In this document: positions 22,302-52,193 of the stretch, one piece after another
How the letters are laid out: the number at the start of each line of letters is the position of its first letter
How positions within the stretch are numbered: the stretch's first letter is position 1
NCBI RefSeq assembly: GCF_003013815.1
Contig: NZ_PRLH01000142.1
Coordinates: 1-56,268, forward strand
Direction: 5' to 3'
DNA from: Cyanothece sp. BG0011
GTDB lineage: Bacteria > Cyanobacteriota > Cyanobacteriia > Cyanobacteriales > Microcystaceae
DNA length: 56,268 bases
Program-made: the position numbers and the translations under genes
The notes under the pieces: generated by a model
Databases searched by the model: none
What the model was told of the DNA's origin: nothing
Seen by the model: the letters and a program-made list of their open reading frames with translations, nothing else

Positions 22302-23087
22302 TCAGGGTAAATTGATTCCCTCATTTCTAGATCCTAGCAAATCTGAAACCGCTTCTAAGATTTTTTCACTCATCAATTGACTCTGAGCATATAGAAAAAA
22401 ATGATCACCCTCCAAAAAATGTAAATTAAGATCCTTTAATGTTTCCTGTTGCCAATTCCATAAATCTGGTTCAGTAATCGCTAAATCTTCTAAACCCGAA
22501 AAAACAGTAATGGGACAATCTAAGGGAGTTCTTGCGGTATAGGAATAGGTTTCAAATAAGGTAAAATCCGCTCTTAAACTGGGTAAAAAGAGTTGAAGTA
22601 ATTCAGCATCTTCTTGAATCATCTCAGGAATCGCCTGATACCGTTGAGATAATTCTTTGACAAAGCGTTGGGGGGGTAAGTGATGGATAGAAGGTTGAGG
22701 AATAGAAGTATTCGGTCCACTACAACCACAAATGAATAAATGTTGTGGCATCGGAGAATGGTTTTGACGTAAACGATGAGTCACTTCATAACTAATTAAT
22801 GCCCCCAAACTATGACCCAAGAAAACAAAAGGGCGGTCTAAATAGTCCTCTAACGCCATGGTAATTGTTTCAATGAGGACAGTCCATTCTTGAATGCAAG
22901 GTTCTTTAATCCGTTTACCTCGTCCTGGCAATTGTAAAGAACAGACTTCAATCTCTGGAAATAAATGTTTTGACCAACTATTAAAACGAGAAGGTAATCC
23001 CCCTGCACAAGGAAAACAAAACAGACGCAAAGAAGCATTTTTGTTGGGTTGAGAAGACAAGATCCAAGGATTAGAAAGTTGATTCAT
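22302..23087 (-). CDS. Type II thioesterase (GrsT-like alpha/beta hydrolase)
   Basis: A 261-aa stand-alone thioesterase of the type that hydrolyses aberrant or finished acyl chains from carrier proteins of PKS or NRPS systems. The FPCAGG oxyanion segment is near residue 26, the nucleophile motif is GHSLGA (~95), the catalytic aspartate is in FSGLEDLAI and the histidine in EGDHFFL. The family-specific LPGRG is also present. It begins 4 bases after the RND permease stop, so it is translationally coupled to an exporter operon rather than to a synthase gene. That placement suggests release and export of the same product. Confidence 0.92.
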   Translation of the reverse strand: MNQLSNPWILSSQPNKNASLRLFCFPCAGGLPSRFNSWSKHLFPEIEVCSLQLPGRGKRIKEPCIQEWTVLIETITMALEDYLDRPFVFLGHSLGALISYEVTHRLRQNHSPMPQHLFICGCSGPNTSIPQPSIHHLPPQRFVKELSQRYQAIPEMIQEDAELLQLFLPSLRADFTLFETYSYTARTPLDCPITVFSGLEDLAITEPDLWNWQQETLKDLNLHFLEGDHFFLYAQSQLMSEKILEAVSDLLGSRNEGINLP

Positions 23088-23091
23088 AATA

Positions 23092-26000
23092 TTAAGCTAA
23101 TTTTCGACGAGTCATAATCGGAAAATTACGACCCTTGAGTAATAAATAAGCACAAGGAACAAAGTATAAAGCAATCAATGTTGCCCCCCCTAATCCCCCT
23201 ACGATGGTAATCGCCAAAGGAGGCCAGAAACCACTGGGATCAAGTAATAAGGGTGTAAAGCCAAGAATAGTGGTCAAAGTGGTTGCAATAACGTGACGAG
23301 TGGCACTCATCACCACATTACGGGCTGCATAGCGATCGCCTCTTGAAGCCAGGGGATCGTGGGTCAAAGAACTTAAGACCACAATCGAATCATTAACCAC
23401 CACTCCCAACAGACCAATAATGCCGAGAATCGCTGTAAATCCGAAAGGGTAATTAAATAAAGCCAATGAACCTAAGCCTAAACCCATAGATAAAATAGCC
23501 ACAAGCAGAATAATTCCCCCCAAGCGAAAAGATTTGAAGGTTAGCACCAAACTAGCCACCATCATAATCCCTAGCACACCCACAGTTGAAATTAAGTTAC
23601 TGACTGCATTTCCCCGTTCCCCTTGTTCTCCTCCAAAATCCCAGGAATAGCCCGGAGGTAAAGAAAAATCACTGGCTTCTAATCGCGCCTCAAAATCAGA
23701 TAATACTGGATCAGCCAACATTCCGGCTGGGATAAACCCTTGCACCGTATTAACCCGTGTCCCATTGCGACGGGAAATAGTGACCACATCCGGGACTAGG
23801 GTAACGTCTCCCACTGCCGACAGAGGAAGAAGAGAACCTGGATCATTGCCCTGAGTCAGTAAGGTAAAAGAAGAAATATCGGCTAAATTGCCCCGTTGTG
23901 AGGCTGTGGTGCGAACCCGAACCGGCAGTTCTTCGGTTCCTTCTAAAATTGATCCCCCAACCCTTCCCTCTAAACTACTATCCAATTGACGACCAAGGGT
24001 GGTTTTATCCAGTCCCGCTAGACGCAGTTGTTCTTCATTGAGGTTTAAGCCCAGTTTCGGTAAGGTTTCTGTCAAATTAGCACGAGTGTGGATAACATTA
24101 GGAGTTTTAGCCAATTCTGCTCGGAGTTGATCCCCTAAAATGCGTAGCTGATTCAAATCAGAACCGTACAATCGCAATTCAATGGGTGCTTCAAAAGGCG
24201 GTCCCTGTTCCAACTGTCGTACAATGACTTGGGCTTGAGGAAACGCCTGATCTAATTCAGTTTGTAACGTTGTAATTAAAGGACTCGATTGAACGTTAGG
24301 TTTGAGTTGTACAATTGCCTGACCATAGTTAGGGGCATTTTCCCGATTTTGGGGGACATTGTAATAAAAAGGAGGCGCACTCTTGCCAAGAAACCACTGT
24401 ACCTCCGCAATTTCTGGATGAGCTAACATTAATTCTCTTGCTTGCATTGCCTGGGACTGGGTTTCTTGCAAAGAGGTTTGAATGGGTAATTCAAAATTAA
24501 GATAGAATTGTCCTCGATCCGTTGGGGGGAAAAACTGCTGTTGCAGATGACCCGAAGCCATAAACCCCCACAAAGGCAGAATGAAAATGATCGCCATGGC
24601 TAATAGGGGACGACTGAAAGTGCGATCAAGACTCCATCGATAAACTTGAGTTAAACGGCCATGGGAAAATCCCCTTTCCCACCAATGTCCTGAAGTAGAT
24701 GTCGGTTGCCAACGGTGTAAACGGCCAGCCAACGCAGGAATCACCGTTAACGCTAGGATTAAAGAACTAATTAAAGCCAGAATCACCGTTACGCCGATAG
24801 TCCCCGTAAACTCTCCGGTCCCTCCTGGGGCAGTGGCAATAGGAACAAACGCTAAAACACTGGTAAAGGTTGAAGCTAACAGAGGACTAAAAATATGACT
24901 GACCGTAGTTGAAACCGCCTCTTTTGGCGACAACCCTTTGTGCAAGTAACTTTGAACTTCATCTACGACAATAATGGCATTATCAATTAACAGTCCTAAA
25001 GCAATAATTAATCCGGTGACAGAAATTTGATGCAAAGGAACGCCTATCAGTTTCATACTGCCAAACACCATCAACACCGATAAAGGTAAGGCTGTTCCCA
25101 CAATTAAAGAGGATTTCCAACCCATGATAAACAAGGTAATGACGATGACCAAACCTGCCCCTAGGGCTAAATTCCCTAAAACATCATTGAGTCGTTCTTG
25201 TACATAATCACTTTGATCAAAAATGGTTTCTAATGTAATACCCTGGGGAAGTTGTTGTTCAAATTCCCTTAACTTATTGTGAGCAATGCTGGCCCAAATA
25301 TCTAGACGTTGATTGGATTGGACAAAAGCAGAAACAGCGATCGCCCGACGACCATTGATTAAGGCTAATTCAGCCGGGGGATCGGCAATCCCTTTACGAA
25401 TGTGGGCAATGTCTCCCAATCGTACTACTTGACTAGACTGACTCGATTGAATCGGTAAGCGATCGAGGCGATCAAGAGAGTCCAATTCCCCGGCAATTTC
25501 AAATAATAAATTACTCTGTTGACTCCTCAATTGTCCGGCGGACACTTTAGCATCGCTGTCTAAAATTTGTTGGGACAGGCTTTGTATGGTTAACCCCAAA
25601 TGGGTTAATTGTTCTGGGTTGACTTCAATGATAATTTCTTCTTCCGGGGTTCCAAACTGCTCAACTTTTTCGGTTCCTCCAATTAACCGGAGTTGATCTT
25701 CCAATTCCTGGGCCCAACGGCTTAAAATTCCGTAGTTAACTGCTGTGTCTAAATCCCAAGTTAAGGCAACAATTAAAGCATTAGCCTTGGCCTTAGAAGT
25801 ATCAAATTCAGGGGTTGAAGCCGTGTTAGGTAAGTGGGGAATGGCATCGTTAACTTTATCCCGAACCTGTGACCAAATGGGATCAACCTCTTTAATATTG
25901 TCATTTAACTCGACGCTAATGGATGAAAAAACCGAGTCTAGAGGTAGATTCAATCGTCTTGATTTCTTCAACTTCAAATAAAGATTCTTCAAGTTTATCC

Positions 26001-26185
26001 GTCACTAGGGTTTCTACCCGTTCAGGTGATGCTCCAGGAAAATGAGTCGTAATCACTGCGAAACGGGAAGTCATTTCTGGGTCTTCCATACGCGGTAAAC
26101 TGAAAAAAGAAGATAAACCCCAAACGATGATCGCTAAAATGGTTAAAATTAAAAGTCGAACATTGCGATAAAATAAGCTATTCAC
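23092..26185 (-). pseudogene. RND efflux permease (AcrB/HAE1 type), frameshifted
   Basis: An inner-membrane RND permease of about 1030 codons interrupted by one frameshift. The first frame (26185 to ~25916) encodes the N-terminal helix and porter start, with FSLPRMEDPEMTSRFAVI and PGASPERVETLVTDKLEE. The second frame continues from SSISVELNDN through all further porter and membrane segments to the C-terminus. Removing one T from the run of six (plus-strand A run 25926-25931) restores ..TSRLGFSSISVEL.., as the family expects. It could be a sequencing error, a recent null mutation or a slippage site. The start is the GTG at 26185 with GAGG upstream. It lies between the adaptor and the thioesterase. 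Confidence 0.85.
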
Positions 26186-26228
26186 CAGTCAGCCTCAGAA
26201 TTCAAAAAGTCAGATGTTCAGTATTGGT

Positions 26229-27746
26229 TTAAGAGGAAGGGCGTACTTTTTGCCCAGGAACCAGTCGATTAGTCCCATTGATAATAATTTGTTCAGTCCC
26301 TTCTAGAGTTCCCCTCACCAGCACTTTTTCCCCATCGGTGTATAAAATTTCTACATCTCGCCGTTCAACGTCAAAGGCTTCTTGCCCCTGGGCTTCTCCT
26401 AACACATAAACCGACCATAAGCCCCTAATTCCCCGAACTAAAGCGGTTGTGGGCAACCAGTACCCTTCAGTCTCTAGGGTTTGTTGCAACTGCCAAGTCA
26501 CCATCTGTCCGGCACTTACCCCTTGAGTCCCCTGATCGTCTAAATTTAAAACAACGGTGACGGTTCGGGTGGTTCCATCGACTTCCGGTAAAATATTGCT
26601 GATGGTTGCTGGATAAGATTTTTCACCAATTTGGACGATTTGTTTCTCTCCTACAGTGATTTTTGATTGTAGGGAAGCAGGAATACCGATATGGGCTTTC
26701 ATATGGTCGAGTTGCACCAAACGCACCACTGACTGACCACTCGAAACAGTGGTTCCTTGGTCTAAATAGCGTTGGGAAATTTTTCCTGTAAAGGGTGCTT
26801 TGAGGACACTTTTTTCTAAATCAATTTCTATACTGGCTAAACGGCTATCTAATTGTTTTAAGGTTGCTTGTTGAGCGTCAACCACCTCCAAACGGGTTCC
26901 CGCTAATAACTCGTCGAGTTGGCTTTGCGCTTCTCTGACCTTAGCTTGCTGCATCATAATCACTTCTGAACGAGTTCCGGCTAATAACTCATCGAGGCGA
27001 CTTTGCGCTTCTTTGACCCTTGCTTGCTGGGTTTCTACTTCCGTAATGACTTCGTCAAGTTGTTCTTGGGAAATTGCCCCTTGACCATAAAGAGACTGTC
27101 TACGCTCACTTTTACTTAGGGATAATTCTAATTGTTCTTGTAAATTGTTCACATTAGCCCGTGCGGCTGCAATGGTCTCCATTCTTGGCCCGGCTTGCAT
27201 TTCCTCTAGTTGGGCCCGTTGTTGCGCTAATTTAGCCCGTGCTGCGTCAATGGTTTCGGTTCTGGGACCTGCTTGCATTTCTCGCAGTTGAGCCATGGCC
27301 TGTTGTTTTTGGGCGAGTATGTCTTGTTTTTGGGTGAGCAACTGGCGAGTATCTAAACGGGCAATGGGAGTCCCAGCAGATACTCGTTGTCCTTCGTCTA
27401 CAAGGATTTGGACAATGTTACCTGCCCGCTCAAATCCTAAATCACTGCTATTTTGGGGAACAATTTCCCCTGTATAGGTTCGTGACTGTTGATGGGAATT
27501 AACGGCCACCAAATTCTCCACTTCCACAGGGAGAAAATGGTTGTTTTCGGCGACGACCGGGGCCATGGGTTCAATAGATTGACGAGTTGACCCCAACCAA
27601 AACCCAATCCCCAATAAGAATAAACCGCCTGCGGATAAAGCCCAAAAGGACTTAAAAACTGATTTTGGCTGTTTATATTCAGGAGAATAAACAATAGAAA
27701 CGGTTTCTTCTGGGGACTGGGGTAACTCGGAATTGAAGTCTTGCAT
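26229..27746 (-). CDS. RND periplasmic adaptor (HlyD/MFP family)
   Basis: A 505-aa adaptor linking an RND permease to an outer-membrane channel. One N-terminal membrane helix (~34-52) is followed by a first lipoyl half with GEIVPQNSSDLGFERAG, a long coiled-coil hairpin, then the second lipoyl half and barrel (VLKAPFTGKISQRYLDQGTTV). The hairpin contains two tandem 26-residue duplications: MQAGPRTETIDAARAK repeated with slight change, and DELLAGTRSEV repeated likewise. It is therefore longer than in standard adaptors. I start at the ATG at 27746, with GAGGAA upstream; the TTG at 27764 is less likely. It is the first gene of the exporter operon, 43 bases before the permease. No TolC gene is present. 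Confidence 0.9.
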   Translation of the reverse strand: MQDFNSELPQSPEETVSIVYSPEYKQPKSVFKSFWALSAGGLFLLGIGFWLGSTRQSIEPMAPVVAENNHFLPVEVENLVAVNSHQQSRTYTGEIVPQNSSDLGFERAGNIVQILVDEGQRVSAGTPIARLDTRQLLTQKQDILAQKQQAMAQLREMQAGPRTETIDAARAKLAQQRAQLEEMQAGPRMETIAAARANVNNLQEQLELSLSKSERRQSLYGQGAISQEQLDEVITEVETQQARVKEAQSRLDELLAGTRSEVIMMQQAKVREAQSQLDELLAGTRLEVVDAQQATLKQLDSRLASIEIDLEKSVLKAPFTGKISQRYLDQGTTVSSGQSVVRLVQLDHMKAHIGIPASLQSKITVGEKQIVQIGEKSYPATISNILPEVDGTTRTVTVVLNLDDQGTQGVSAGQMVTWQLQQTLETEGYWLPTTALVRGIRGLWSVYVLGEAQGQEAFDVERRDVEILYTDGEKVLVRGTLEGTEQIIINGTNRLVPGQKVRPSS

Positions 27747-28110
27747 ATTGACTAGGTTCCTCAAAGTTGTATTTACGTAATCTTTATGCTCTTCAATTCC
27801 CTAACCTTGACCAACAAAAGACATTTCCTTGCCGTATTGAGTTAGTGACGAGAGCAATTTTTTTTCTTGAAACAAGAGCAAGCAGCCATTAAACTCGCAC
27901 TCAATCGATCCAACGTAACTGTCGGTTGAAGTCAAAAGCTTTCTACTTCATGGCAATTAGCAGAATGAATACGCCTTTCTAAACTAGAGGAAAGAGACGA
28001 AAAATAGTTTTGACGGTTAATATCATCCTCTAGATTCTAACGATTGCTAAAGATGTTATGATTTTGACCAAAACTAAAGCTAACCCGAGCCACAGAGATG
28101 CTATTAACTG
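27747..28110. other. Leader of the exporter operon
   Basis: 364 bases between the adaptor start and element copy B. It must hold the exporter promoter. I see no clear operator or conserved hexamer pair. Confidence 0.4.
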
Positions 28111-28346
28111 TTAACTTATATCTTGCACCTTCGATTACACCCCCCACACCCCCCTTTGAAAGGGGGGCCGGGGGGGTAGGCAAGAGGCAAGAGGCAAGAG
28201 GCAAGAGCCCGCGCCTTCGCATCTGCGCAAGGGAACGCTCACCAAGACAGGCAAAAGTATCTTATTTTAAGGCTAACTGCTTGAACATTGACTGTCTTCT
28301 TTTTAGCTATTAAGTTATTTTGTAAGGCGTGCAAGATGTCAGTTAA
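28111..28346 (+). mobile_element. MITE-like element, copy B
   Basis: Terminal inverted repeats TTAACTTATATCTTGCACC (28111-28129) and CGTGCAAGATGTCAGTTAA (28328-28346) bound 236 bp. Inside are a C-run/G-run palindrome (CCCCCCTTTGAAAGGGGGG), four GGCAAGA heptamers (28179-28206) and a 114-bp segment (28208-28321) that matches copy C (52353-52466) at all but two positions. There is no transposase gene inside, so it is non-autonomous. Confidence 0.82.
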
Positions 28347-28595
28347 GAAATTAGCAAACTTTTTCAAGCCTGTCATATTATCTAGTAATGATTAGAGATA
28401 ATTATTTTTTGAGTTGTCAAGGGTAATCTTCTGAAAAATTACCGTTTATTTTTCTCCATAGGCTATCCTTAGATTCTAGAATTTTGTTCATAAAGGTTAA
28501 TTTTCTGTAGATTTAAAATATTTTAAAGATGTTAAGCATCTTTGGGGAAGTTTAGAGGTAATCCTATCACCTCGTTCTATATTTACTTTAAAATG

Positions 28596-28624
28596 AAAAT
28601 TCTCCAATAAAATGGAGAATTTTT
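28596..28624 (-). terminator. Hairpin terminator of the flavoprotein gene
   Basis: A perfect 10-bp stem, AAAATTCTCC with GGAGAATTTT, 85 bases after the stop of the minus-strand flavoprotein gene and followed by a T-rich tract on that strand. The rest of 28347-28708 shows nothing. Confidence 0.6.
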
Positions 28625-28708
28625 AGAAAAATTAGTTTATTCTTTATTTTTTATGGGAAAAACCATAATCTTCATTCTTCCAGAAAAATCTCGCTACTTT
28701 TTCAGAAA

Positions 28709-29986
28709 TTATCCTTTTTTCAGACGCTCAACTAATTCAACCGCACAACCAATGCCACTTTCATGAAATCCATAGGAATCAATCCCTCGTTTTTTAATGT
28801 GAAAATAAGTCCCTGAAAAATAAATAGGCCCCGTTTCATTTAACTGATAAATTTTCTTTTGTGCCTCTAAGGTATTCATATCATAAGCAGGGTGTTTATA
28901 GTTAAGAATTCTGATGATTTTATCCTCATCTATGGCGATGGGAGGGGTATCTAATGAGACAAAATAATCTTTTTTTGCTTCAAAACTATGAACTTTATTA
29001 GAATAATAAGTGACATAGGTATAAAGTTGTCCTTCTTTGGTTACTTGTCCATAATTCCAAGATTGCCAGGTCTTACGATCGCTGTTCATAATTACAGGAT
29101 CAGTATGTACGGTTACGGCTGTTTCATTGTATTTAAAACAACCTAATATTTCTTCTTCTAAGGGGGTGGGATCGGCTAAAATGTCTAAGGCTTGATCGGC
29201 ATGAGTGGCAATAACAACTTTATCAAAAATCGCCTCATCTGTTTTGGTTTTAACTAATACTTTGCCGTCTTCTTGTTTCTTAACACTAATAACTTCTTCT
29301 TCTGTGCGAATCGGTTTTTTTAAGGCATCTCTTACCTTTTCTACATAACGACTACTTCCCCCTTTTACTGTTTCCCAGTCAACGGTTTTTCCCCCTAAAC
29401 CTCCTTGATCATGGGTCATAAAAAAACTAATAAAAGTTGAGGCTGGAAACTCCATTAATAACTCCGTGGGAATTGACCAAACCGCCGATCCCATCAACAT
29501 CACAAAGTTATCTCTAAACCCTTGACTATAATTATTAGCATCTAAATATTCTTGCATAGAAACTCGTGTTTTTCCTTCCCAAAAATCGGAACGTGCTTGA
29601 GAAAAAAAGCGTTTTGCTTCTTCATAACAAGCGACTAATTCTGGGGGTTGTTGCTGTTCAAATTCTTCTTTAGACATTTCTAAATCAAAGGAATTAAACT
29701 GCATTCCTGTATCTAAATTATAGAAGTTAAATCCTCCTAAATGGCTTTGAGTTTCTACGCCTAAATCCTCAAAAAATTGCATCAAATTAGGATAATTTGG
29801 CTTATTACAAACAACAAAAGCAGTGTCAAGGGAAATCCGTTTACCGTCTTCATCTAAGTCTAGTGTGTGAGCATGACCTCCTACACGGCTACTTTTTTCG
29901 TAAACTTCTATATCATACTGATCTTGAAGATAGTAGGCGATGGGTGTGCCTGAAATACCAGAACCAATAATTGCTAGTTTTTCCAT
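28709..29986 (-). CDS. FAD/NAD(P)-binding oxidoreductase (COG2907-like)
   Basis: A 425-aa flavoprotein of the amine-oxidase/desaturase-like fold. The FAD site is at the N-terminus: IIGSGISGTPIAYYL, then VYEKSSRVGGHAHT, the usual Glu and GG motifs. The KVVIATHADQALDIL segment and a C-terminal YFSGTYF..GIGCAVEL segment close the cofactor pocket. It looks like the COG2907 group of predicted NAD/FAD proteins, often found near fatty-acid-modifying enzymes such as cyclopropane synthases. Here it is 138 bases downstream of the PfaD-like gene, in the same direction. A redox step on the acyl product, such as desaturation or double-bond isomerisation, is a reasonable inference, not a demonstrated one. 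Confidence 0.75.
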   Translation of the reverse strand: MEKLAIIGSGISGTPIAYYLQDQYDIEVYEKSSRVGGHAHTLDLDEDGKRISLDTAFVVCNKPNYPNLMQFFEDLGVETQSHLGGFNFYNLDTGMQFNSFDLEMSKEEFEQQQPPELVACYEEAKRFFSQARSDFWEGKTRVSMQEYLDANNYSQGFRDNFVMLMGSAVWSIPTELLMEFPASTFISFFMTHDQGGLGGKTVDWETVKGGSSRYVEKVRDALKKPIRTEEEVISVKKQEDGKVLVKTKTDEAIFDKVVIATHADQALDILADPTPLEEEILGCFKYNETAVTVHTDPVIMNSDRKTWQSWNYGQVTKEGQLYTYVTYYSNKVHSFEAKKDYFVSLDTPPIAIDEDKIIRILNYKHPAYDMNTLEAQKKIYQLNETGPIYFSGTYFHIKKRGIDSYGFHESGIGCAVELVERLKKG

Positions 29987-30124
29987 GGATTTTCCTTGGA
30001 TAATTAGGGTTAATTGTTGTTAGTTTAAGTATACACTGATTCCTTGTCCTAAAAACTCAAATTTAGGAGGATGTTTCTGACAAGTAATTATACTCAGAAT
30101 TAGGCTTTTTATACTTAACTAAAG

Positions 30125-31726
30125 TTAATAAAAAGAGACGGGATGATAATAACTGTATTGAGAAGGAAAGTTTAACCCTTGAAACTTTAAGTTTTGTAAT
30201 CGATATAAATAAGCGGCTCCTCTCATGATATGACTTGCCACATCAACCACTTTACGATTTTCAGGTACTTCTAAATAAGAACCCCTTACCCACTCATTAA
30301 ACGATCCCATCGCCGGACCACACCAAATTTGATAATCCATTTTTCGTTGTTCCTCTCCACTGGTAGACCAACGGGAAGAGAGTCCTAAATACCAGCGAAA
30401 AATTAAGGCCATTTTTCGTTTAGGATTGTTACTTGCTCGTTCTATTTGTTCGGGATCTCGTTGTTGAAAATAAGCAACGGTTTCGTCCCAAACTGTGTCT
30501 AAATTTTTGCGGAAAATTTGTTTTTCTAGGGTTTGACGAATATCTGTAGGAAGGGTTTCGATGCTGTCATAGGTTTTGTAAAGATCATAGAGTTTTTGCG
30601 CTCTCATCGGGAATAAACTACCCCGTTTCAGCAGTTGCACCCTAACCCCCATTTCAAACATATCAGCGCAAGGGGCCATTACTACGTCTGCCATTCCAGC
30701 TTGGGCGAGTAATTGTTTAGTATGATCAGAAGTTCCGGCTTCTATGCAACTATGATTGACCGAACCCGTCACAATATAACTGGCTCCCATCATAAAGGCG
30801 GCTAAGGCTGCTTCTGGGGTGCCTATACCGCCGGCCGCCCCCACCCTTACCGGACGCTCATAATGGTATTGTCGTTGAATTTCATCCCGTAGAGCAATAA
30901 TAGAAGGAAGAAGGCACACCAAAGAACGGTTATCGGTGTGACCCCCAGAGTCCGCTTCAACGGTAATATCGTCAGCTAAAGGAACTTTTTGGGCTAACGT
31001 GGCTTGTAAGGGGGTAATTTGCCTTTTTTCTACCAATTCGTTGAGTAGTTTAACGGGGGCTGGTTGTAGGAATTTACGGGCAACTTCTGATCGGGAAATT
31101 TTGGCGATAACTTTATTATGGGTTTGTATGTTGCCTTGGGTGTCCAAGGCTAAACCAACGGCGCGGTAGCGAACGATATGGGGGGTTAAATCCATGTATG
31201 CCGAGGCTTCGACGGTTTTTACCCCATGTTTGAGGTAAAGGTTAACTGCGCCCTCTTCTAGAGCCTCCTCCGAGGGGCTGTGGATTAAATTGAAAGCATA
31301 TGGACCATTGGGTAGGGCGGTTTGAATGGTGTTGATGGCTTGTTCAACTCGTTGGGGAACTAAACCTGCTGAACCAAAACTGGCTAAAAATCCTGCTTTC
31401 CCCAGGGAAATGACCAATTCTTCTGAGGCAATGCCTCCGGCCATCGCCCCGGCTGCATAGGCATAGTTTACCCCATGAAACTCACAAAAACCGCGATCGC
31501 CTAATTGTTGGGGTAGGAGGGGGTTGACCATCATTTGTGGGGGAACATTATCAACCCGTTGATGGGATAAACCAATTTTATTGTTATCGAGAAAAACATA
31601 ACAAGGTTGAGCTAAATTTAACAATTTTTCTTTAATTCCTTCCGCATCAAAAGCAATGGACTCTGAGGTATCAGGAAGGATAGGAAGGTTCGATAAGGTT
31701 GTGGTTGTTGGTTGATTCATTTTCAA
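30125..31726 (-). CDS. PfaD-like trans-acting enoyl reductase (FMN, NPD-like barrel)
   Basis: A 533-aa protein of the PfaD family, the stand-alone flavin enoyl reductase of PUFA and heterocyst-glycolipid type synthases. The N-terminal part has GVNYAYAAGAMAGGIASEEL and SLGKAGFLASFGSAG. The FMN-binding barrel carries GAAGGIGTPEAALAAF and the ADSGGHTDNR histidine block, and the family-specific C-terminal extension (YQIWCGPAMGSFNEWV..) is complete. It lies 25 bases downstream of the pseudo-KS/AT/DH gene, so it belongs to the synthase operon. Its presence means the acyl chain is at least partly reduced to saturated two-carbon units. Confidence 0.92.
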   Translation of the reverse strand: MKMNQPTTTTLSNLPILPDTSESIAFDAEGIKEKLLNLAQPCYVFLDNNKIGLSHQRVDNVPPQMMVNPLLPQQLGDRGFCEFHGVNYAYAAGAMAGGIASEELVISLGKAGFLASFGSAGLVPQRVEQAINTIQTALPNGPYAFNLIHSPSEEALEEGAVNLYLKHGVKTVEASAYMDLTPHIVRYRAVGLALDTQGNIQTHNKVIAKISRSEVARKFLQPAPVKLLNELVEKRQITPLQATLAQKVPLADDITVEADSGGHTDNRSLVCLLPSIIALRDEIQRQYHYERPVRVGAAGGIGTPEAALAAFMMGASYIVTGSVNHSCIEAGTSDHTKQLLAQAGMADVVMAPCADMFEMGVRVQLLKRGSLFPMRAQKLYDLYKTYDSIETLPTDIRQTLEKQIFRKNLDTVWDETVAYFQQRDPEQIERASNNPKRKMALIFRWYLGLSSRWSTSGEEQRKMDYQIWCGPAMGSFNEWVRGSYLEVPENRKVVDVASHIMRGAAYLYRLQNLKFQGLNFPSQYSYYHPVSFY

Positions 31727-31751
31727 TCTTTGAGTAACGGTTAATCGGTTT

Positions 31752-44004: not shown

Positions 44005-44808
44005 ATGCGATCAAATCCCTCTTTTGACTTAATTAATTCCCAAACTCAAGAACGATTCTCTGAACCTAGTTCCTTAACCCAATGTTTGATTAATCAAGTT
44101 ACAGAAGCAATATTTTGTGTTGATTGCCAGACTCGTTTTCAATATGTTAATGATGCTGCTTGCGCCTTAATCGGTTGTTCAAGGGAGCATTTATTACAAA
44201 CAACAATTAATGACATAGAGATAGATTTTTTCTCCCAAACTTGGTCAGAATACTGGGCCTTAATCCAAGAAAAATCATCAGTCAACTTTCAGACAGAATT
44301 ATCCACTGATACAGAGACACAAGTCCTTGACGTTACCATCAATTTTCTCGAATATGACAGTGAGGTATACGGTTGTATTTTAGTTCGCCCACTAGCCAAG
44401 GTATCCCCTCAACCCTTATTAAGAGTCGTTCCTAACCACCAACAGAGTTGTCAAAAGCAAACTTCTTTTTATCCAAACTGTACTCAACTAAAACCCATTT
44501 TTGAGTTCATTGAAAACCACTATACTCAACCCATCAGTTTAAACGATGTGGCAGAAGCAGTGGGTTATTCTCCCGCCTATCTCACCAACTTGGTGAAGCG
44601 GAGAACGCGCAAAACCATTATTAATTGGATATTAGAACGAAGAATGCTAGAAGCTCGTTCCTTATTATTGAATACCCAGGATTCTATTACGAAAATTGCC
44701 ATGTCTATTGGCTTTAGTGATGCTTATTATTTTTCTCGAAGATTTAGTCAACTTCATGAAATCTCCCCCAAACGTTGGAGACAACAACATCAGATGCAAT
44801 CAGCATAA
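44005..44808 (+). CDS. PAS-domain AraC family transcriptional regulator
   Basis: A 267-aa regulator. Residues ~22-130 form a PAS sensor (ITEAIFCVDCQ-like start VTEAIFCVDCQTRFQYVNDAA, CALIGCSREHLL). Residues ~165-262 are two AraC helix-turn-helix units: ISLNDVAEAVGYSPAYLTNLVKR for the first, and ITKIAMSIGFSDAYYFSRRF with FSQLHEISPKRWR for the second. It is divergent from the KS-AT-ACP gene and heads the plus-strand half of the cluster, so it is the likely pathway regulator. PAS domains may bind flavin, haem or small ligands, and no cofactor residue is certain here. The start at 44005 lacks a clear ribosome site. Confidence 0.88.
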   Translation: MRSNPSFDLINSQTQERFSEPSSLTQCLINQVTEAIFCVDCQTRFQYVNDAACALIGCSREHLLQTTINDIEIDFFSQTWSEYWALIQEKSSVNFQTELSTDTETQVLDVTINFLEYDSEVYGCILVRPLAKVSPQPLLRVVPNHQQSCQKQTSFYPNCTQLKPIFEFIENHYTQPISLNDVAEAVGYSPAYLTNLVKRRTRKTIINWILERRMLEARSLLLNTQDSITKIAMSIGFSDAYYFSRRFSQLHEISPKRWRQQHQMQSA

Positions 44809-45065: not shown

Positions 45066-45329
45066 ATGACTATTAAAACTGAACAACCCAAAACCGTAGA
45101 AGATATCCAAAACTGGCTTATTGATCAATTTGCTCAACAACTGGATGTAGAACCAGATGATATTGATGTTGAAGAGCCTTTTGATAATTATGAATTAGAT
45201 TCAAGTAAAGCCTTAATTTTATTAGGTCGATTAGAAAAATGGCTAGGAAAAGAGTTAAATCCTGTTGTTATGTTTAATTATCCAACCATTGCTGAACTCT
45301 CCGAAAGATTGGGAGAATTATATCTTTAA
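45066..45329 (+). CDS. Free-standing acyl carrier protein
   Basis: An 87-aa carrier protein, complete by itself. The phosphopantetheine site is YELDSSKALILLGRLE (Ser46), followed by helix III in NPVVMFNYPTIAEL. It resembles the discrete carriers that accompany fatty-acyl or halogenating enzymes in cyanobacterial clusters rather than the housekeeping AcpP, whose motif is GADSLD. It lies 257 bases after the regulator and before the halogenase-family gene, so a role in presenting the substrate to that flavoenzyme or to the PKS is plausible. Confidence 0.9.
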   Translation: MTIKTEQPKTVEDIQNWLIDQFAQQLDVEPDDIDVEEPFDNYELDSSKALILLGRLEKWLGKELNPVVMFNYPTIAELSERLGELYL

Positions 45330-45371
45330 AATTGAATTGTTAAGAGTCTTCTTAATAAATATCAAAAAAAG

Positions 45372-45409
45372 ATAGATATCTATGGTGTCAACACACCATA
45401 GATATCTAT
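45372..45409. promoter_or_regulatory. Perfect 17-bp inverted repeat between ACP and halogenase genes
   Basis: ATAGATATCTATGGTGT (45372-45388), loop CAAC, then its exact complement (45393-45409). A further partial copy, CTATGGTTGGTGTG, follows at once. There is no U tract, so an operator or RNA structure is as likely as a terminator. It starts 43 bases after the ACP stop and ends ~200 bases before the halogenase ATG. Confidence 0.6.
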
Positions 45410-45606
45410 GGTTGGTGTGAGGAAAAAATATAAGAATTGATAAGTCCAATAAAAACTCCAGTTTTTACGAAAAATATCCCATACCCGATGAGAATGAGAC
45501 GAGATTAGACTGGTATTTAAGAACATCAAATGACTCATTTGATTCAGTGAATCATTGTTCCCTTGTCATGTTCTTCACCTCTCAATATATAGGAAAAATT
45601 TGTTTT

Positions 45607-47406
45607 ATGGTTGTTACTGCACAGACCGACGTTTATGATGTTGTGATTATGGGAGCAGGGTTTGCAGGGGTTTGTCAAGCAAGACATCTACTGCTGAACG
45701 TTCCTAATATAAAAATTGCTCTCATTGATCCAAGACCAGAACAAAGGACGAATAAAGACCTCAAAATTGGGGAATCTATGGTAGAAATTGCTACACTTTT
45801 TGTCTGTAAAGAATTAGGTTTATATGAATATATGACCGAAAATCATCCCCCCAAATTTGGACTTAATTTTCACTGGCCAAAAACAACCGAAAAAACGACA
45901 ACAACTGATGATTATTATCATATCTGGAATAATCGTCAACCTCCTTTAGCTTCCTTTCAAATGAACCGAGCCAAATTTGAGCAAGATTTGCTACAAATGG
46001 ATAAAGAAATGGGAGCAACCTTCTATCAAGGTCGAGTCATAGACTTTGATTTAAGTGCCAGAGATGAACTAAAAACCGTTAAAGTTAAACTTAATAATGA
46101 ATATGTAACGCTCAAAGCTAAGCACCTGATTGATGCAGCAGGACGTAAGTTTTTAATCGGTAAAAAAACAGATAATTTATTATTTGGTGCTGACAATCTC
46201 TTTGGATTGGATACAGGTTCAGTATGGGTTAGGGTTAATAACATTGATCGCACCATTTTTCATGATGGGTATGACCCCCACGGAACAACTTGTAGTCATT
46301 ATTATGCAACTAATCATTGGTTTGGTCATGGCCATTGGATATGGATGATTCCCACAGAAAAAGATAGTCAAGAGATTTCTATCGGTATGGCCTATCATCG
46401 CTCAGCGATCGCCGACCAACAAATTAATACAAAAGAAAAATTCTATGATTTCTTACAGGCTAATCATGAAGTTCTCTATCGTTTAGTTACCAGTGGAGAG
46501 AATATTGACTTTCATTATCTCCCGCGTCCTGCTCATACCAGTAAAACCATGTTATCTGAAGATAATTGGTATGTTTTAGGAGATGCAGCTTGTATTTTTG
46601 ATCCCTTTTATTCTTTGGGATCTAGTATGATTGCTCATGAAATTGAATGTACAACAGAAATTATTCGCTCCAAGTTAGCTGGCGATCCTTTAGCCGAGAA
46701 AAAACGAGCAGCCTATAATGATTTTATTATCGCCCACACACGATTTAATAATCATCTCATTAAACATCATGATAAACATTTAGGCGATGCTAGTGTCATG
46801 AGTTGGCGTATTTACCATGATTATATTGGCTGGTTTGGGATTCAAGTACCTCTATATCTCGGAAAATGGTTTTTAGATGTTGATTTTCTATCTCGATATA
46901 ATCCAGGGTTAACACATTATCAAAACAACTACTGTGAGCATCTTTATGAACAATTTAATCAAGTGATAGAACAGGGTAAAAATATCGGGTTTATGGACTG
47001 CTATCGAGGGGATCAATTATGGGGACATTACCATACGCTACAACATTTTGATGATTTCGTTGAAAACACGAAACTCGAACCCCAAAAGTGTAATGTTTTT
47101 GCTTCAATGAAAGCCAGTAATTTCTATCGAGGCATTTGGTATGGAAAGTTTCTTTGGAAAGCCTTTGGCTGGCGTGGCTTTTTAAACAGAAAGAATCTGG
47201 CTTACTTGATGGAACATTTTGTTAATATGTTGCAATTTATGATTGCAGACATGGTGTATCGCTACTTAACTAAAGATATGGTAGATAACACAGCAGTTGA
47301 GACAATGCGGGAAGAATTTGTCAATTATCATCATCAACCTCAACTGAATAGTTGGATTAAAGAAACATCTTCAGACTCATCAGAAAAAATTCCTGTCAAT
47401 GCCTAG
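45607..47406 (+). CDS. Flavin-dependent halogenase family protein
   Basis: A 599-aa flavoenzyme of the tryptophan-halogenase superfamily. FAD loop VIMGAGFAG (13-21); the KIGESM block; lysine in PPKFGLNFHW (Lys83), at the position of the catalytic lysine that forms hypohalous acid or chloramine; the halogenase signature WIWMIP (244-249, WxWxIP); and GDAACIFDPFYSLGSS near 325-340. The extra C-terminal region (~370-599) is like that of carrier-protein- or non-indole-directed members such as CmlS and CndH. Halogenation of a carrier-bound intermediate is therefore likely, but some relatives are hydroxylases. I use the ATG at 45607, since the FAD loop should begin near residue 12. An upstream GTG at 45547 is possible. 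The PKS gene follows 80 bases later. Confidence 0.85.
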   Translation: MVVTAQTDVYDVVIMGAGFAGVCQARHLLLNVPNIKIALIDPRPEQRTNKDLKIGESMVEIATLFVCKELGLYEYMTENHPPKFGLNFHWPKTTEKTTTTDDYYHIWNNRQPPLASFQMNRAKFEQDLLQMDKEMGATFYQGRVIDFDLSARDELKTVKVKLNNEYVTLKAKHLIDAAGRKFLIGKKTDNLLFGADNLFGLDTGSVWVRVNNIDRTIFHDGYDPHGTTCSHYYATNHWFGHGHWIWMIPTEKDSQEISIGMAYHRSAIADQQINTKEKFYDFLQANHEVLYRLVTSGENIDFHYLPRPAHTSKTMLSEDNWYVLGDAACIFDPFYSLGSSMIAHEIECTTEIIRSKLAGDPLAEKKRAAYNDFIIAHTRFNNHLIKHHDKHLGDASVMSWRIYHDYIGWFGIQVPLYLGKWFLDVDFLSRYNPGLTHYQNNYCEHLYEQFNQVIEQGKNIGFMDCYRGDQLWGHYHTLQHFDDFVENTKLEPQKCNVFASMKASNFYRGIWYGKFLWKAFGWRGFLNRKNLAYLMEHFVNMLQFMIADMVYRYLTKDMVDNTAVETMREEFVNYHHQPQLNSWIKETSSDSSEKIPVNA

Positions 47407-47486
47407 ATTGACTTAACCAGGTGTGGGGATTTTTTCAGCATAAACTTTTCTAGCTTCTGATTATTTACAAATTCTATTTCTTGATC

Positions 47487-50400
47487 ATGGAACCTATTGC
47501 AATTATCGGTATTGGCTGTCGTTTTCCTCAAGCTAAAGATCCTCAAGCTTTTTGGCAATTATTATCTCAAGGAATTGACGCTATTACAGAAATTCCCGGC
47601 GATCGCTGGAATATAGACGAATTTTATGACAGTAACCCAGAGACCCCCGGCAAAATAGCTTCCCGTTATGGAGGCTTTTTATCAGACCTAGATGGCTTTG
47701 ATCCCAACTTTTTCGGCATTTCCCCAAAAGAAGCCCGATTAATCGATCCTCAACAACGTTTATTATTAGAAGTGGCTTGGGAAGCCTTAGAAGACGGGGG
47801 AATGGTAAAAGAACAAATCGCTGGTTCTAATACAGGGGTATTTATGGGGATTGGTACCAACGATTATAGTCGTATCCCTGGCTCAACCTATAACGATCAA
47901 CCTCAAGGTTACGATCTCACCGGCAATGAAATGAATATAGCGGCGGGCCGTCTTTCTTACTTGTTTAATCTACGGGGTCCGAGTTTAGCTGTTAATACGG
48001 CTTGTTCTTCTTCCTTGGTGGCAGTGCATTTAGCTTGCCAAAGCATTTGGAACCAAGAGGCAGAAATGGCCTTAGCAGGAGGAGTCAATGTCATTTTATC
48101 TCCCATTGGTAATATTGCCTTGAGTCGATTAAAAGCCCTATCTCCCGATGGACGGTGTAAGACGTTTGATGCTAGTGCTAATGGCTATGTGCGTAGCGAA
48201 GGGGCTGGTTGTATTCTCCTTAAACCCTTATCAAAAGCGATCGCCGATCATGACCCTATCTATGCAGTGATCCGAGGCAGTGCCATTAATCATGATGGAC
48301 GGAGTAAAGGCTTAACGGTTCCCTACGGACCAGCCCAAGAAACCTTAATTCGTCGGGCATTGCACAGTGCTGAAGTTCAGCCCAAAGAGATCAATTATGT
48401 GGAATTACATGGAACTGGCACCCCGTTAGGTGATCCCATTGAAGCCATGGCCTTAGGTACCGTTTTAGGAGAAGGGCGCAACCCTGATGATCCTTGTTTA
48501 GTGGGATCGGTTAAAAGTAATATTGGTCATTTAGAAGCGGCCGCTGGCATTGCCAGTGTCATCAAAATGGCACTATCTCTGAAATATCAACAAATTCCCC
48601 CTAGTCTTCATTTTAATCAGCCTAACCCTTATATTCCTTTTGATAAATTACCCCTTAAAGTACAATCGACTCTAATTCCTTGGCCCCAAAAAGAGACGCC
48701 TGCTAAAGTGGGTATCAGTTCCTTTGGTTTTTCGGGAACGAACGCTCATATCATCTTAGAAGCCGTTACCTTATCTCAAACGACTCAGCAACCCCCCTTA
48801 CGGTTTCCCCATTTACTGCCTATCTCAGCCCATACCCCCGAAGCAGTCACTAACCTAGTGCAGGGGTATCAAGGCTTAATAGAAGACAAAGAACTGACCC
48901 CAAACGATGTACAGAATCTTTGTTATAGTGCGAGTACAAGGCGGACGCACCATGCTCACCGCCGAGCTGTGGTGATTAATTCTCCCCAAGAATTACAAGC
49001 TAGTTTACAAGAACTAGAAGCCGTTGACTTAGACAGTTTACCGAAACCCTCGAAACGTAAACCGAAAATTACCTTTGTCTTTTCCGGTCAAGGGCCTCAA
49101 TGGTGGGGTATGGGACGGGAATTATTAGCCCAAGAAGCGGTATTTCGGGCAGTCATTGAAGAATGTGACCGTTTGATTCAAAAGTATGCTCACTGGTCAT
49201 TATTAGAGCAGTTTACCCTTGCTGAGTCCGAGACTCGCCTCCAAAAAACAGAAATCGCTCAACCAGCTTTATTTGCCTTACAAGTAGGGTTAGCTCAATT
49301 ATGGCGTTCTTGGGGCATTGAACCAAAAGCTGTCATCGGTCATAGTTTAGGAGAAGTAGCAGCAGCCCATTTTGCCGAGGTTTTGACCCTTGAAGAGGCA
49401 GTTTCTTTAATTTGTCATCGGGGACAATTAATGCAGCAAGGGACTGGTAACGGTAAGATGCTGGCGGTAGAATTGCCTGTGACGCAAGTACAATCATTAT
49501 TGACGTTTTGGAATGATCAATTAGAAGTAGCAGCGATTAATGGTCCTAGCTCAACTGTTATTTCTGGAAACTCAGCAGCCATTGATGATTTTGTGGCTGA
49601 GTTAAAAGAGAAATCACCCAATATTTTTTATAAAGAATTACCGGTTAATTATGCGTTCCATAGTCAACAAATGGAACCCTTGGCTGAAGCTTTAGTTAAA
49701 AAAATCAGTCATCTAAATCCTCAAAAAGAAAGGGTTTCTATCTTTTCAACAGTTACGGGAGATCAGATCGATGGGACAGCCTTAAATGCTGAGTATTGGG
49801 GTAAAAACATGCGTCAAACCGTTAGATTTAACCCTGCTATTGAAGCTTTAATCCAGTCCCGTCATACCCTATTTTTAGAGGTTAGTCCCCATCCGGTTTT
49901 ATCAGGATATATGAAGAAAACTTTAATCGAAAAACAAACAGAGGGAGTGGTTTTACCTTCCCTAAGACGCAAAGATCCAGAACGGATAACCCTATTAAAT
50001 TCCCTGGGGACGTTTTATACTTGGGGACAGTCAATTAATTGGGAAAAATTATATCCTAATCACTGTGAAAAAGTCGAGTTACCTTTGTATCCTTGGCAAA
50101 GAGAATCTTATTGGATTGATGATATTAAACCTCAATTTAAGGAAGCAACCCCCAAATCTTCTTTATTACAACTATTAATAGAAGGAAAGACCCAAAAGCT
50201 AACAGAAGCATTAAATAAAAAGCCGCAACTATCCCCAGAAGCTAAACAAGTGTTACCTCAAATTTTGTCGTTATTAGTAGAGACAGAAGGGACAAGTCAA
50301 TTAGGTCAAAATTTAGCCAAAGCTTGTTACAAAGTACAGTGGGAAGAAAATCATTTATCTATCAATCAATCAGAAAATAAACAGGAAAATTGGTTGATTT

Positions 50401-52193
50401 TTAGTGATAAAAAAGGGACAGGAGAAACCATAGCTAATGCTTTAAATCATCCTTGTATTTTAGTCTCCTCTGGCAACAGTTATCAAACTTTAGACAATCA
50501 ACATTATCAAATTAATCCCGATAGTTGTGAGAATTTTAAACAATTACTAATCAGTCTTGCTCAACCCATTACTAAAATCCTTTATCTCTGGGGTTTAGAC
50601 AGTTCAATGGACTTGAAACAGTCCCATGAGTCTTTGTTGTATTTAGTACAAGCATTACTCAAAAACCCAACTACCATTATCCCCAAACTATGGATTATAA
50701 CCCAACAAGCACAATCGGTTATCAGTCACCCAAAAAGCTGTAATATAGCCCAAAGCAGCTTATGGGGAATGGGTCAAGTGATAGCCTTAGAACATCCTCA
50801 ACTATGGGGGGGATTAATTGACCTAGATGATTCTAGCTTATCCCTGATGCCGATGATTACTCAAATTACAGCAGAAACAGGGGAAAAGCGAGTTGCATTT
50901 CGGGAGGATAAACGTTATGTTGCCCGTTTAACCCCCACTCAACCCAGTTCATCTCCTCCTTTATCTCTGAACAATGAAGGGTGTTACTTAATTACAGGAG
51001 GGTTAGGGGCTTTAGGATTAACCTTAGCAGATTGGTTAGTGGACAAAGGAGCTAATCATTTAATTTTAACCAGTCGTCGCAGTTTAGCAGAACAATCAGC
51101 AGAAAAACAAGCAAAAATTGCAGCCTTAGAAGCCAAAAAAGTCAAAGTAACCGTGATCGCTGCCGATGTCACTAACTATGACCAGATGCAGCAACTATTT
51201 AACCAGATTAAACAACAATATCCGCCCCTACTGGGTATTATTCATGGGGCTGGAGTCTTAACGGATCAAATCATTGAACAGATGGATATTGATAGCTTTG
51301 AAGCCGTGTTAAAGCCTAAAGTTACAGGGGGTTGGAACTTACATCAACTCTCCCGTGATCTCCCTTTAGACTTTTTTGTCTGTTTTTCCTCCATGTCTGC
51401 ATTACTGGGTTCACGAGGACAACTTCATTATGCAGGGGCTAACGCCTTTTTAGACGGGTTAGTACATTACCGTCGAAGTTTAGGACTACCTGGCATGAGT
51501 ATTAACTGGGGGCCTTGGGCAGAAGGCGGTATGGCAAACCAAGGGTATGAACAAGGGTTAAAATTGATGGGAATTAACCCATTAGATCCCACATCAGCCT
51601 TGACTCTTCTCGGAAATTTACTCTTAGGAGAATCTGAGCAAATGATGGTGGCCGATATTGATTGGGGTAAATTTGGAAATATTGTGGCGGCGAAAGGAAA
51701 AACTCCCTTTTTACAACAATTATTGCCAGAAAATCCAGGAGAATCTCCAGAAAAAAGCCGAAATTTAGCACAAGAATTAGAAGAAACTCCACCCCATCGA
51801 CGAATCCCTTTATTGACCCAGGAATTACAACAACAAGTGGCGCAAGTGCTGGGGCTACGAGGATCATCTTTACCCGAAACCGATCAAGGGTTTTTTGACA
51901 TGGGGATGGACTCTTTAATGTCGGTAGAACTCAAACATCGCTTAGAAAAATTATTTAACGTTTCTCTACCATCCACCCTAGCTTTTGAATATCCCACCAT
52001 TGAGGATGTTGTGACTTATTTCAGTGATCAAGTGTTTGCTTGGAGCGTTGAGTCAAACCACTCCCAACCCACAATGTCTCAAAAGGCGGTTGGTTTAGAA
52101 GCAACCGTAACGGAACTCGAAGGGCTATCCGAAGCCGAAACAGAAGCCCTAGCCGAACAAGAACTCGCTGAACTCGAAGCATTACTATCGTAA
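47487..52193 (+). CDS. Type I PKS module: KS-AT-KR-ACP
   Basis: 1568 aa, one complete modular extension unit. KS ~1-425: VNTACSSS (Cys173), ELHGTGTPLGD (His308), SNIGHLEAAAG (His348). AT ~528-880: GHSLGEV (Ser620), YAFHS (722-726), indicating malonyl rather than methylmalonyl use. KR ~960-1400: TGGLGALG (~1170-1177), LTD motif (B-type, D-hydroxyl), SSMSALLG, HYAGAN (Tyr1315). ACP ~1440-1530: GMDSLMSV (Ser1476). No thioesterase domain; it ends in an acidic Leu/Glu-rich tail of the docking type seen where a chain passes to another protein. I start at the ATG at 47487. The TAA stop coincides with the end of element copy C, so the true C-terminus could be shortened. Confidence 0.93.
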   Translation: MEPIAIIGIGCRFPQAKDPQAFWQLLSQGIDAITEIPGDRWNIDEFYDSNPETPGKIASRYGGFLSDLDGFDPNFFGISPKEARLIDPQQRLLLEVAWEALEDGGMVKEQIAGSNTGVFMGIGTNDYSRIPGSTYNDQPQGYDLTGNEMNIAAGRLSYLFNLRGPSLAVNTACSSSLVAVHLACQSIWNQEAEMALAGGVNVILSPIGNIALSRLKALSPDGRCKTFDASANGYVRSEGAGCILLKPLSKAIADHDPIYAVIRGSAINHDGRSKGLTVPYGPAQETLIRRALHSAEVQPKEINYVELHGTGTPLGDPIEAMALGTVLGEGRNPDDPCLVGSVKSNIGHLEAAAGIASVIKMALSLKYQQIPPSLHFNQPNPYIPFDKLPLKVQSTLIPWPQKETPAKVGISSFGFSGTNAHIILEAVTLSQTTQQPPLRFPHLLPISAHTPEAVTNLVQGYQGLIEDKELTPNDVQNLCYSASTRRTHHAHRRAVVINSPQELQASLQELEAVDLDSLPKPSKRKPKITFVFSGQGPQWWGMGRELLAQEAVFRAVIEECDRLIQKYAHWSLLEQFTLAESETRLQKTEIAQPALFALQVGLAQLWRSWGIEPKAVIGHSLGEVAAAHFAEVLTLEEAVSLICHRGQLMQQGTGNGKMLAVELPVTQVQSLLTFWNDQLEVAAINGPSSTVISGNSAAIDDFVAELKEKSPNIFYKELPVNYAFHSQQMEPLAEALVKKISHLNPQKERVSIFSTVTGDQIDGTALNAEYWGKNMRQTVRFNPAIEALIQSRHTLFLEVSPHPVLSGYMKKTLIEKQTEGVVLPSLRRKDPERITLLNSLGTFYTWGQSINWEKLYPNHCEKVELPLYPWQRESYWIDDIKPQFKEATPKSSLLQLLIEGKTQKLTEALNKKPQLSPEAKQVLPQILSLLVETEGTSQLGQNLAKACYKVQWEENHLSINQSENKQENWLIFSDKKGTGETIANALNHPCILVSSGNSYQTLDNQHYQINPDSCENFKQLLISLAQPITKILYLWGLDSSMDLKQSHESLLYLVQALLKNPTTIIPKLWIITQQAQSVISHPKSCNIAQSSLWGMGQVIALEHPQLWGGLIDLDDSSLSLMPMITQITAETGEKRVAFREDKRYVARLTPTQPSSSPPLSLNNEGCYLITGGLGALGLTLADWLVDKGANHLILTSRRSLAEQSAEKQAKIAALEAKKVKVTVIAADVTNYDQMQQLFNQIKQQYPPLLGIIHGAGVLTDQIIEQMDIDSFEAVLKPKVTGGWNLHQLSRDLPLDFFVCFSSMSALLGSRGQLHYAGANAFLDGLVHYRRSLGLPGMSINWGPWAEGGMANQGYEQGLKLMGINPLDPTSALTLLGNLLLGESEQMMVADIDWGKFGNIVAAKGKTPFLQQLLPENPGESPEKSRNLAQELEETPPHRRIPLLTQELQQQVAQVLGLRGSSLPETDQGFFDMGMDSLMSVELKHRLEKLFNVSLPSTLAFEYPTIEDVVTYFSDQVFAWSVESNHSQPTMSQKAVGLEATVTELEGLSEAETEALAEQELAELEALLS

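Follow-up and report, generated by a model that had tools for sequence, protein, structure and literature searches.

Clade II hybrids that combine a polyunsaturated fatty acid (PUFA) synthase, a polyketide synthase (PKS) and a nonribosomal peptide synthetase (NRPS) have been mapped in cyanobacteria. In the portion of PMC13291983 available, these triple hybrids are uncharacterised and putative tryptophan halogenases are reported in two M. aeruginosa strains. PKS-derived sphingolipids were described in 2025, and the available portion of PMC12134224 presents them as the first such case to its authors' knowledge. There, PfSgaA/B/C of Pseudomonas fluorescens MYb115 combine a PKS with an alpha-oxoamine synthase (AOS) that has serine palmitoyltransferase (SPT) activity, yielding C24-C28 sphinganines, and a short-chain dehydrogenase/reductase (SDR) resembling 3-ketodihydrosphingosine reductase (KDSR) was proposed for the reduction. 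Here we analysed a stretch of 56,268 nucleotides from Cyanothece sp. BG0011 (NZ_PRLH01000142.1; hereafter the window), which is one whole contig, C156, of a 5.6-Mb genome in 227 contigs. Between 22302 and 52193 it encodes a PUFA-type lipid synthase, a halogenase-family enzyme and a PKS (PKS1). Judging from sequence, we consider it moderately probable that these genes form the first part of a pathway to a halogenated, PUFA-synthase-primed, sphingoid-type amino alcohol, the rest of which is encoded on a second contig, C152.

The C152 block (16211-25303) encodes a second PKS (PKS2, 1873 aa), a 443-aa pyridoxal phosphate-type enzyme, a 270-aa SDR and a 257-aa protein. These are 72, 86, 78 and 64% identical to the products of the four genes after PKS1 in Microcystis LSC13-02, and the two blocks are collinear at the DNA level over nearly all of positions 10402-18979 of that LSC13-02 contig. 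PKS2 of C152 contains an acyltransferase (AT) with the motif HAFH, a ketoreductase (KR), an acyl carrier protein (ACP) and a dehydratase (DH) with HxxxDxxxxP and DxxxQ; a domain scan of its LSC13-02 ortholog gave ketosynthase (KS)-AT-DH-KR-ACP. HAFH marks malonyl-type ATs. The C152 protein also retains the N-terminal helix common to five aligned PKS2 orthologs. The 443-aa protein is an AOS whose closest solved relative is serine palmitoyltransferase 2 (233 bits), and a function like that of SPT would fit it. The SDR is closest among solved structures to the 3-ketodihydrosphingosine reductase TSC10 (113.9 bits versus 100.1 for the next). Together, the two enzymes resemble those of the opening pair of reactions in sphingosine synthesis. 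On our best reading, the C152 block is likely the continuation of the window pathway, with PKS1 predicted to dock onto PKS2 and the two loci serving one pathway. Because PKS2, the AOS and the SDR stand on C152, that pathway probably does not end at 52193, and the single polyketide extension proposed in a sequence-only reading of the window probably does not hold once the whole genome is considered.

The genes that the sequence-only reading had named were confirmed as open reading frames (ORFs) with their domains by the ORF list, Pfam and NCBIfam. Those of the lipid synthase, halogenase-family enzyme and PKS1 lie as follows (percentages are identities; G393 is a genome of the same genus):

30125-31726, minus strand: PfaD trans-enoyl reductase (NCBIfam TIGR02814, pfaD_fam, 682.7 bits versus a cutoff of 449.25)
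31752-36572, minus strand: PfaBC fusion of 1606 aa with a KS remnant, an AT and two FabA-type DHs (Pfam; AT motif GYSMGE; DH motifs at 1107 and 1501)
36734-38491, minus strand: PfaA part 3, catalytic KR and PKS-type DH (NCBIfam PfaA positions 1990-2582)
38623-39339, minus strand: PfaA part 2, probable structural (pseudo) KR half of 238 aa (NCBIfam PfaA positions 1753-1976; no Pfam match)
39390-43226, minus strand: PfaA part 1, KS-AT-ACP of HglE type with one ACP found (Pfam; DAACASS, EAHGTGT, KSQIGH, GHSFG, LGIDSI)
44005-44808, plus strand: PAS and AraC-type regulator (Pfam HTH_18 and PAS; 74% to G393)
45066-45329, plus strand: free ACP (Pfam PP-binding, 1e-16)
45547-47406, plus strand: flavin-dependent halogenase-family enzyme of 619 aa (Pfam Trp_halogenase, 46.5 bits versus a cutoff of 21; WIWMIP at 264, K103, GAGFAG, PFYSLG)
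47481-52193, plus strand: PKS1, KS-AT-KR-ACP with a docking-type C-terminal tail (Pfam; motifs)
52225-52360, plus strand: dispersed-repeat copy that immediately follows PKS1, at the place taken by PKS2 in relatives (sequence matches across the genome)

The earlier description of a dissected PUFA/heterocyst glycolipid (hgl)-type synthase with a halogenase-family enzyme and a PKS stands, and the overall interpretation built on it is partly supported. A motif check of the KS-AT-ACP protein identified the motifs of its KS and AT and a single ACP serine. The label pseudo-KS/AT/DH given to the 1606-aa protein was also borne out: the patterns used found no KS cysteine or histidine motifs in it, while its AT and both DH motifs are present. 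Between these proteins' genes, the 238-aa product corresponds to the 'unknown Rossmann' protein inside split pfaA. Its span on the NCBIfam PfaA model directly precedes that of the KR-DH protein. It is 51% identical to the segment that immediately precedes the KR in a fused PfaA of 2338 aa from a same-order genome, the C-terminal part of which matches the KR-DH protein at 47%; it also matches the end of another KS-AT protein (55%) and a separate 279-aa protein (53%). Its predicted structure (pLDDT 74, 7 sequences) matches SDR folds. Given this model position, the alignments to the pre-KR stretch and the fold match, the protein would most simply be the structural half of the ketoreductase, standing alone.

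The 619-aa enzyme has the features GxGxxG, WxWxIP and lysine of flavin-dependent halogenases, here as GAGFAG, WIWMIP and K103. K103, which we take to be the known catalytic lysine of these enzymes, is invariant together with W264, W266 and P269 in 18 of 18 aligned homologs, three of which are only 26-27% identical. Sequence matches in the PDB were PltA, FasV, ChlB4, CmlS, Mpy16 and CndH, and the best fold matches by Foldseek were ChlB4, PltA and Mpy16 (TM-scores of the first seven, 0.44-0.48 by query and 0.60-0.66 by target). PltA, Mpy16 and ChlB4 act on carrier-bound substrates. Because the enzyme scores below the cutoff of every NCBIfam family among the matches listed, halogenation is put forward here as its probable reaction only. 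The halogenated product of the sequence-only reading is backed by family membership and motifs, and not beyond that level.

Homologs of the free ACP (43-47% identity) adjoin PapA-type acyltransferases in the pfa clusters of two same-order genomes. The ACP fits a carrier of finished lipid because of these neighbours, and its probable role is that of an exit or relay carrier that receives the lipid. We rejected a role as dedicated halogenation carrier, since Nostoc mirabile has the ACP without a neighbouring halogenase. Loading of an amino acid onto the ACP was likewise rejected, as its best NCBIfam match (below cutoff) was the N-terminal part of Pks13 and its homologs stand beside PapA-type acyltransferases.

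In the pathway that we propose, the PUFA-synthase-like complex (KS-AT-ACP, split KR and DH, inactive-KS/AT/DH/DH and PfaD) would iteratively build a long acyl chain, which would pass to the free ACP. The halogenase-family enzyme, as kin of carrier-protein-dependent halogenases, would act on the ACP-bound intermediate. PKS1 would then add one malonyl unit and leave a hydroxyl, and PKS2 (KS-AT-DH-KR-ACP) would add another unit and leave a double bond. Decarboxylative condensation with an amino acid, catalysed by the AOS, would free the chain, and the KDSR-like SDR would reduce the new ketone. If the amino acid were serine, the product would carry a sphingosine-like 2-amino-1,3,7-trihydroxy-4-ene head on a long, possibly halogenated chain. 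We infer both the joint work of the two loci and this chemistry, with the halogenation step, the identity of the amino acid and the final product included.

What the sequence itself shows is the set of genes with their domains and catalytic motifs, the C152 block and the orthologs of that block in relatives. We searched 50 genomes of the source-strain family, which also includes the Microcystis genomes LSC13-02 and S464. Over the first 20 kb of contig C82, LSC13-02 and family genome G417 have identical sequence. The 1606-aa protein was found in seven (E<=1e-100). Halogenase matches occurred in 12 (E<=1e-50): six had orthologs at 69-100% identity (window included) and six had only paralogs at 51-59%. 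All six ortholog genomes are among the seven with the lipid synthase; in the seventh, part of the region consists of N. The two halves of the cluster, which the sequence-only reading had joined, are thus conserved together. Halogenase and lipid genes share one contig in five of the six, LSC13-02 having them on two (C82 and C90), and the order ACP-halogenase-PKS1 is kept in all six. Beyond the family, the lipid genes, ACP, PKSs and an NRPS also occur in Nostoc mirabile; no halogenase was found within the 60 kb read, and the halogenase paralogs of this genome lie on another contig. A halogenase match (E<=0.001) was present in 21 of 386 genomes sampled across the phylum, counting the window genome.

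All six other clade II loci read, including the halogenase-free one of Nostoc mirabile, continue after PKS1 with one or more additional PKSs. In five of them (G393, S464, G419, SU_1_2 and Nostoc mirabile) the second PKS is followed by an NRPS protein of 971-988 aa with A and C domains, a call made with Pfam for G393, S464 and Nostoc mirabile and by near full-length identity to G393 for G419 (72%) and SU_1_2 (58%). No ortholog of this protein was found in the window genome, where the best match (39%) belongs to another cluster on contig C118; the locus is therefore a sister variant and not a strict triple hybrid. On C118 there is a large PKS-NRPS cluster of its own, close to genes for RND-type transport. 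Besides its AOS cassette, LSC13-02 carries at the edge of a contig (L121, 2-1249) a 378-aa fragment of the NRPS A-C gene (66% identity), either a remnant or a second release gene. More distant AOS genes occur in other family genomes, some of them within frames as long as those of PKSs or with an ACP-like segment. The latter include AOS proteins of 538 and 553 aa from another genus of the family (L166, 4371-5987; L167, 9953-11614).

The halogenase gene and the release cassette vary among relatives independently of the remaining genes. In protein identity, the nearest relative of the window is G393 for AraC, ACP, PKS1, KS-AT-ACP, pfaBC, PfaD and the flavoprotein, with the limits that pfaBC of SU_1_2 lies in two ORFs, of which the second was compared, and that SU_1_2 has no AraC or flavoprotein row. 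The three Microcystis clusters are closest to each other for the compared proteins (94-100%), and trees of PKS1 and KS-AT-ACP agree. The halogenase groups otherwise in a small set of six sequences: the window protein is most similar to those of LSC13-02 and S464 (80-82%) and the G393 protein to that of G419 (89%), with support of 100/100 for both groups. Among the three Microcystis clusters, one halogenase is divergent (75-76%) and one release cassette is different. LSC13-02 and G419 DNA is 91-100% identical up to the first part of the halogenase gene, 62-81% through its remainder and 93-100% again in most of PKS1, up to the 3' end of that gene; beyond it the release cassettes are different. 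Identity between the two PKS2 types is 61-65% across the first 900-970 residues, with no further match reported, which places the swap point after the AT. Halogenase allele and release type are not linked, since S464 pairs the first allele with an NRPS and LSC13-02 and the window pair the same allele group with an AOS.

To the left of PfaD, the window carries the following genes and remnants:

22302-23087, minus strand: thioesterase (TE) with the motif GHSLG (Pfam PF00975, 6.7e-42)
23092-25992, minus strand: main part of an RND efflux permease (Pfam ACR_tran, 5.6e-135; 74% to residues 111-1048 of the Microcystis RND permease)
25916-26185, minus strand: N-terminal part of this RND permease, out of frame with the main part (over 86 aa, 80% to residues 26-111 of the Microcystis permease of 1055 aa)
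26229-27764, minus strand: RND periplasmic adaptor of HlyD type (NCBIfam RND_mfp, 188 bits, above cutoff; 62% to Microcystis orthologs)
27929-28114, minus strand: 62-codon remnant of a gene that is a 321-aa ORF in a Microcystis cluster (tblastn 61%, 4e-13)
28709-29986, minus strand: FAD-dependent flavoprotein of the amine-oxidase family, labelled COG2907-like in the sequence-only reading (Pfam Amino_oxidase, 1e-18; 97% to G393, 87% to Microcystis, 67% to Nostoc mirabile)
30069-30164, minus strand: 32-codon remnant of an MFS exporter (tblastn 69%, 8e-8 to a 404-aa ORF of G393; MFS Pfam match on the G393 gene)

The two frames of the RND permease jointly match three intact Microcystis orthologs nearly end to end, with the frameshift near the 5' end. 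The permease and adaptor genes behind the earlier proposal of RND export are present, but the frameshift in the permease makes export in this genome doubtful. The MFS gene of relatives has shrunk to 32 codons and another gene to 62. An assembly error may lie behind these signs of decay. The dispersed repeat after PKS1 matches at least 69 places in the genome at E<=1e-5, a count that includes both strands and partial copies and for which 40 of 172 candidates were scored. It also matches itself on the other strand, and has further copies in the window at 13237-13319 and 28114-28207, the latter a related copy that borders the 62-codon remnant. The repeat may have served the rearrangement. A TE common to relatives was rejected: tblastn at 1e-5 found no match in any of 17 stretches (relatives and other contigs of this genome), and the window control matched. 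At the right edge of the cluster, the other strand encodes a 1118-aa protein (52495-55851) with SdrD B-like, H-type lectin and weak matrixin-like matches. Rfam and tRNA scans gave zero matches.

Several observations weigh against a halogenated sphingoid product. The free ACP occurs in Nostoc mirabile without a halogenase beside it, and the AOS cassette (AOS at 86% identity or more in two of the 50 family genomes, the window genome and LSC13-02) is present in only two of the six halogenase-bearing genomes. The AOS and the SDR fall below all NCBIfam cutoffs, the top raw score of the AOS being bioF. Exporter decay could be a sign that the pathway is fading in this genome. A putative SPT is also reported from Nostoc punctiforme, in which, in the available portion of PMC8895605, no sphingolipids were detected and production was judged unlikely. 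The window genes might instead act alone, with one PKS extension and hydrolysis by the TE giving a halogenated hydroxy fatty acid and the C152 block serving another pathway. In keeping with this, the TE is an intact ORF with GHSLG that was found in none of the 17 other stretches tested, and the PKS1 tail is 68% identical to that of G393, whose PKS2 is of the NRPS type, versus 54% to LSC13. However, PKS1 still ends in a docking-type tail, the C152 block is orthologous to the one directly downstream of PKS1 in LSC13-02, and a further PKS follows PKS1 in every other clade II locus read, which makes this alternative unlikely.

That the halogenase-family enzyme is a flavin monooxygenase that epoxidises or hydroxylates the lipid is fairly unlikely. 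Several of its sub-cutoff NCBIfam matches are reductases, maturases or hydroxylases, its Foldseek list runs on into monooxygenases, and the confidence of the fold model is moderate (pLDDT 74). Nevertheless, its top sequence and fold matches are halogenases, Trp_halogenase is above its Pfam cutoff, and the tryptophans and proline of WxWxIP and the lysine aligned with one of PltA are invariant among the 18 homologs. The frameshifted RND gene, the two remnants, the separation of the PKS2 block and the dispersed repeats near two of the breaks could also mean that the cluster is a decaying relic without a product in this genome. We regard this as quite unlikely, as the biosynthetic reading frames are uninterrupted both in the window and in the C152 block, and catalytic motifs were present where they were looked for. 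Membership in the hgl type is very improbable. The KR-DH protein is 42-49% identical to proteins in 44 of the 386 phylum genomes, all of the same order, which may be hgl genes, but the orthologs (56-84% identity) make up a set that is accompanied by PKS genes and by NRPS or AOS genes. The family also includes Microcystis, which to our knowledge forms no heterocysts. Overall, this is a real, conserved and largely intact specialised-lipid pathway that is apparently split over two loci.

Two further observations concern relatives of these genes. The sequence JAAUUT010000026.1 (L073), labelled Candidatus Gracilibacteria, carries this cyanobacterial cluster. The label looks wrong, because the family genome G413 has the corresponding contig with the same halogenase place. 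Halogenase paralogs also occur in tandem, two or three together, beside iterative-type KS-AT and ACP-KR-DH synthases (L169 20001-25664, on plasmid Cy782201 of Gloeothece verrucosa PCC 7822; L052, L054, L056, L057, L059, L060, L074 and L076-L078). Two scanned second proteins of these loci have a 4HBT domain; the Gloeothece plasmid also carries a DevBCA-type exporter, and G191 a DUF1702 protein. This is a second, separate kind of halogenase cluster.

If the proposed pathway holds, the coupling of a PUFA-type synthase to a PKS and to final sphingosine-type reactions, with a halogenase-family enzyme on the route, would be novel as a combination and offer a concrete source of new metabolites from blooms. 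In eukaryotes, sphingoid bases act as potent signals. We tentatively suggest, as a possibility, that freshwater cyanobacteria make halogenated sphingosine-like lipids with an exchangeable halogenase, and that an exchangeable cassette sets either a peptide end (NRPS) or a sphingoid end (SPT-like AOS and KDSR-like SDR). The Microcystis clusters are a natural experiment in this respect: since their remaining proteins are 94-100% identical and they differ in halogenase or release cassette, the effect of each could be read by comparing strains. The 'unknown' clade II protein would be explained as half of a ketoreductase, and single-locus tools can miss half of such a pathway.

Compared with known systems, the locus belongs nearest to clade II, a relationship that rests on the Microcystis, SU_1_2 and Nostoc mirabile clusters. 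Shared with clade II are a pfaA split in two genes with a Rossmann-type gene between (here KS-AT-ACP, KR half and KR-DH), a fused pfaBC with an AT and one or two DHs and no CLF, and an adjacent PKS. As clusters of this kind are already mapped as clade II in the available portion of PMC13291983, the sequence-only reading's 'undescribed cluster' does not hold for the kind, although it remains apt for the chemistry, which is uncharacterised. No description of the C152/LSC13-type cluster was found in the open-access literature, judged by title or abstract start. The locus differs from clade II in that it has no flanking NRPS module, such as the A-C protein of G393, and likely continues instead with PKS2, the AOS and the KDSR-like SDR on another contig. 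It also keeps a KS remnant in pfaBC, and its extra gene is identified as a probable KR half. We therefore describe it as a new clade II variant, in which predicted sphingosine-type end steps replace the NRPS. The putative hgl synthases and other pfa clusters of the order share the HglE-type KS-AT-ACP, KR half, KR-DH, DH and PfaD at 39-67% identity, but have other release genes, PapA-type acyltransferases in two loci. The halogenase-family enzyme resembles PltA, ChlB4, Mpy16, CmlS and CndH in its FAD fold, WxWxIP, lysine and PltA-like alignment, whereas identity is about 18-21% in the best fold alignments and its length is 619 aa versus 449-455 aa (ChlB4, PltA). As in PfSgaABC, so far as the available portion of PMC12134224 describes it, a PKS chain would be released by an SPT-like AOS and handed to a KDSR-like SDR, both here beside PKS2 on C152 with the rest on C156. 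However, Sga uses one iterative PKS (SgaA), whereas here a PUFA-type complex would be followed by PKS1 and PKS2, with the halogenase-family enzyme between.

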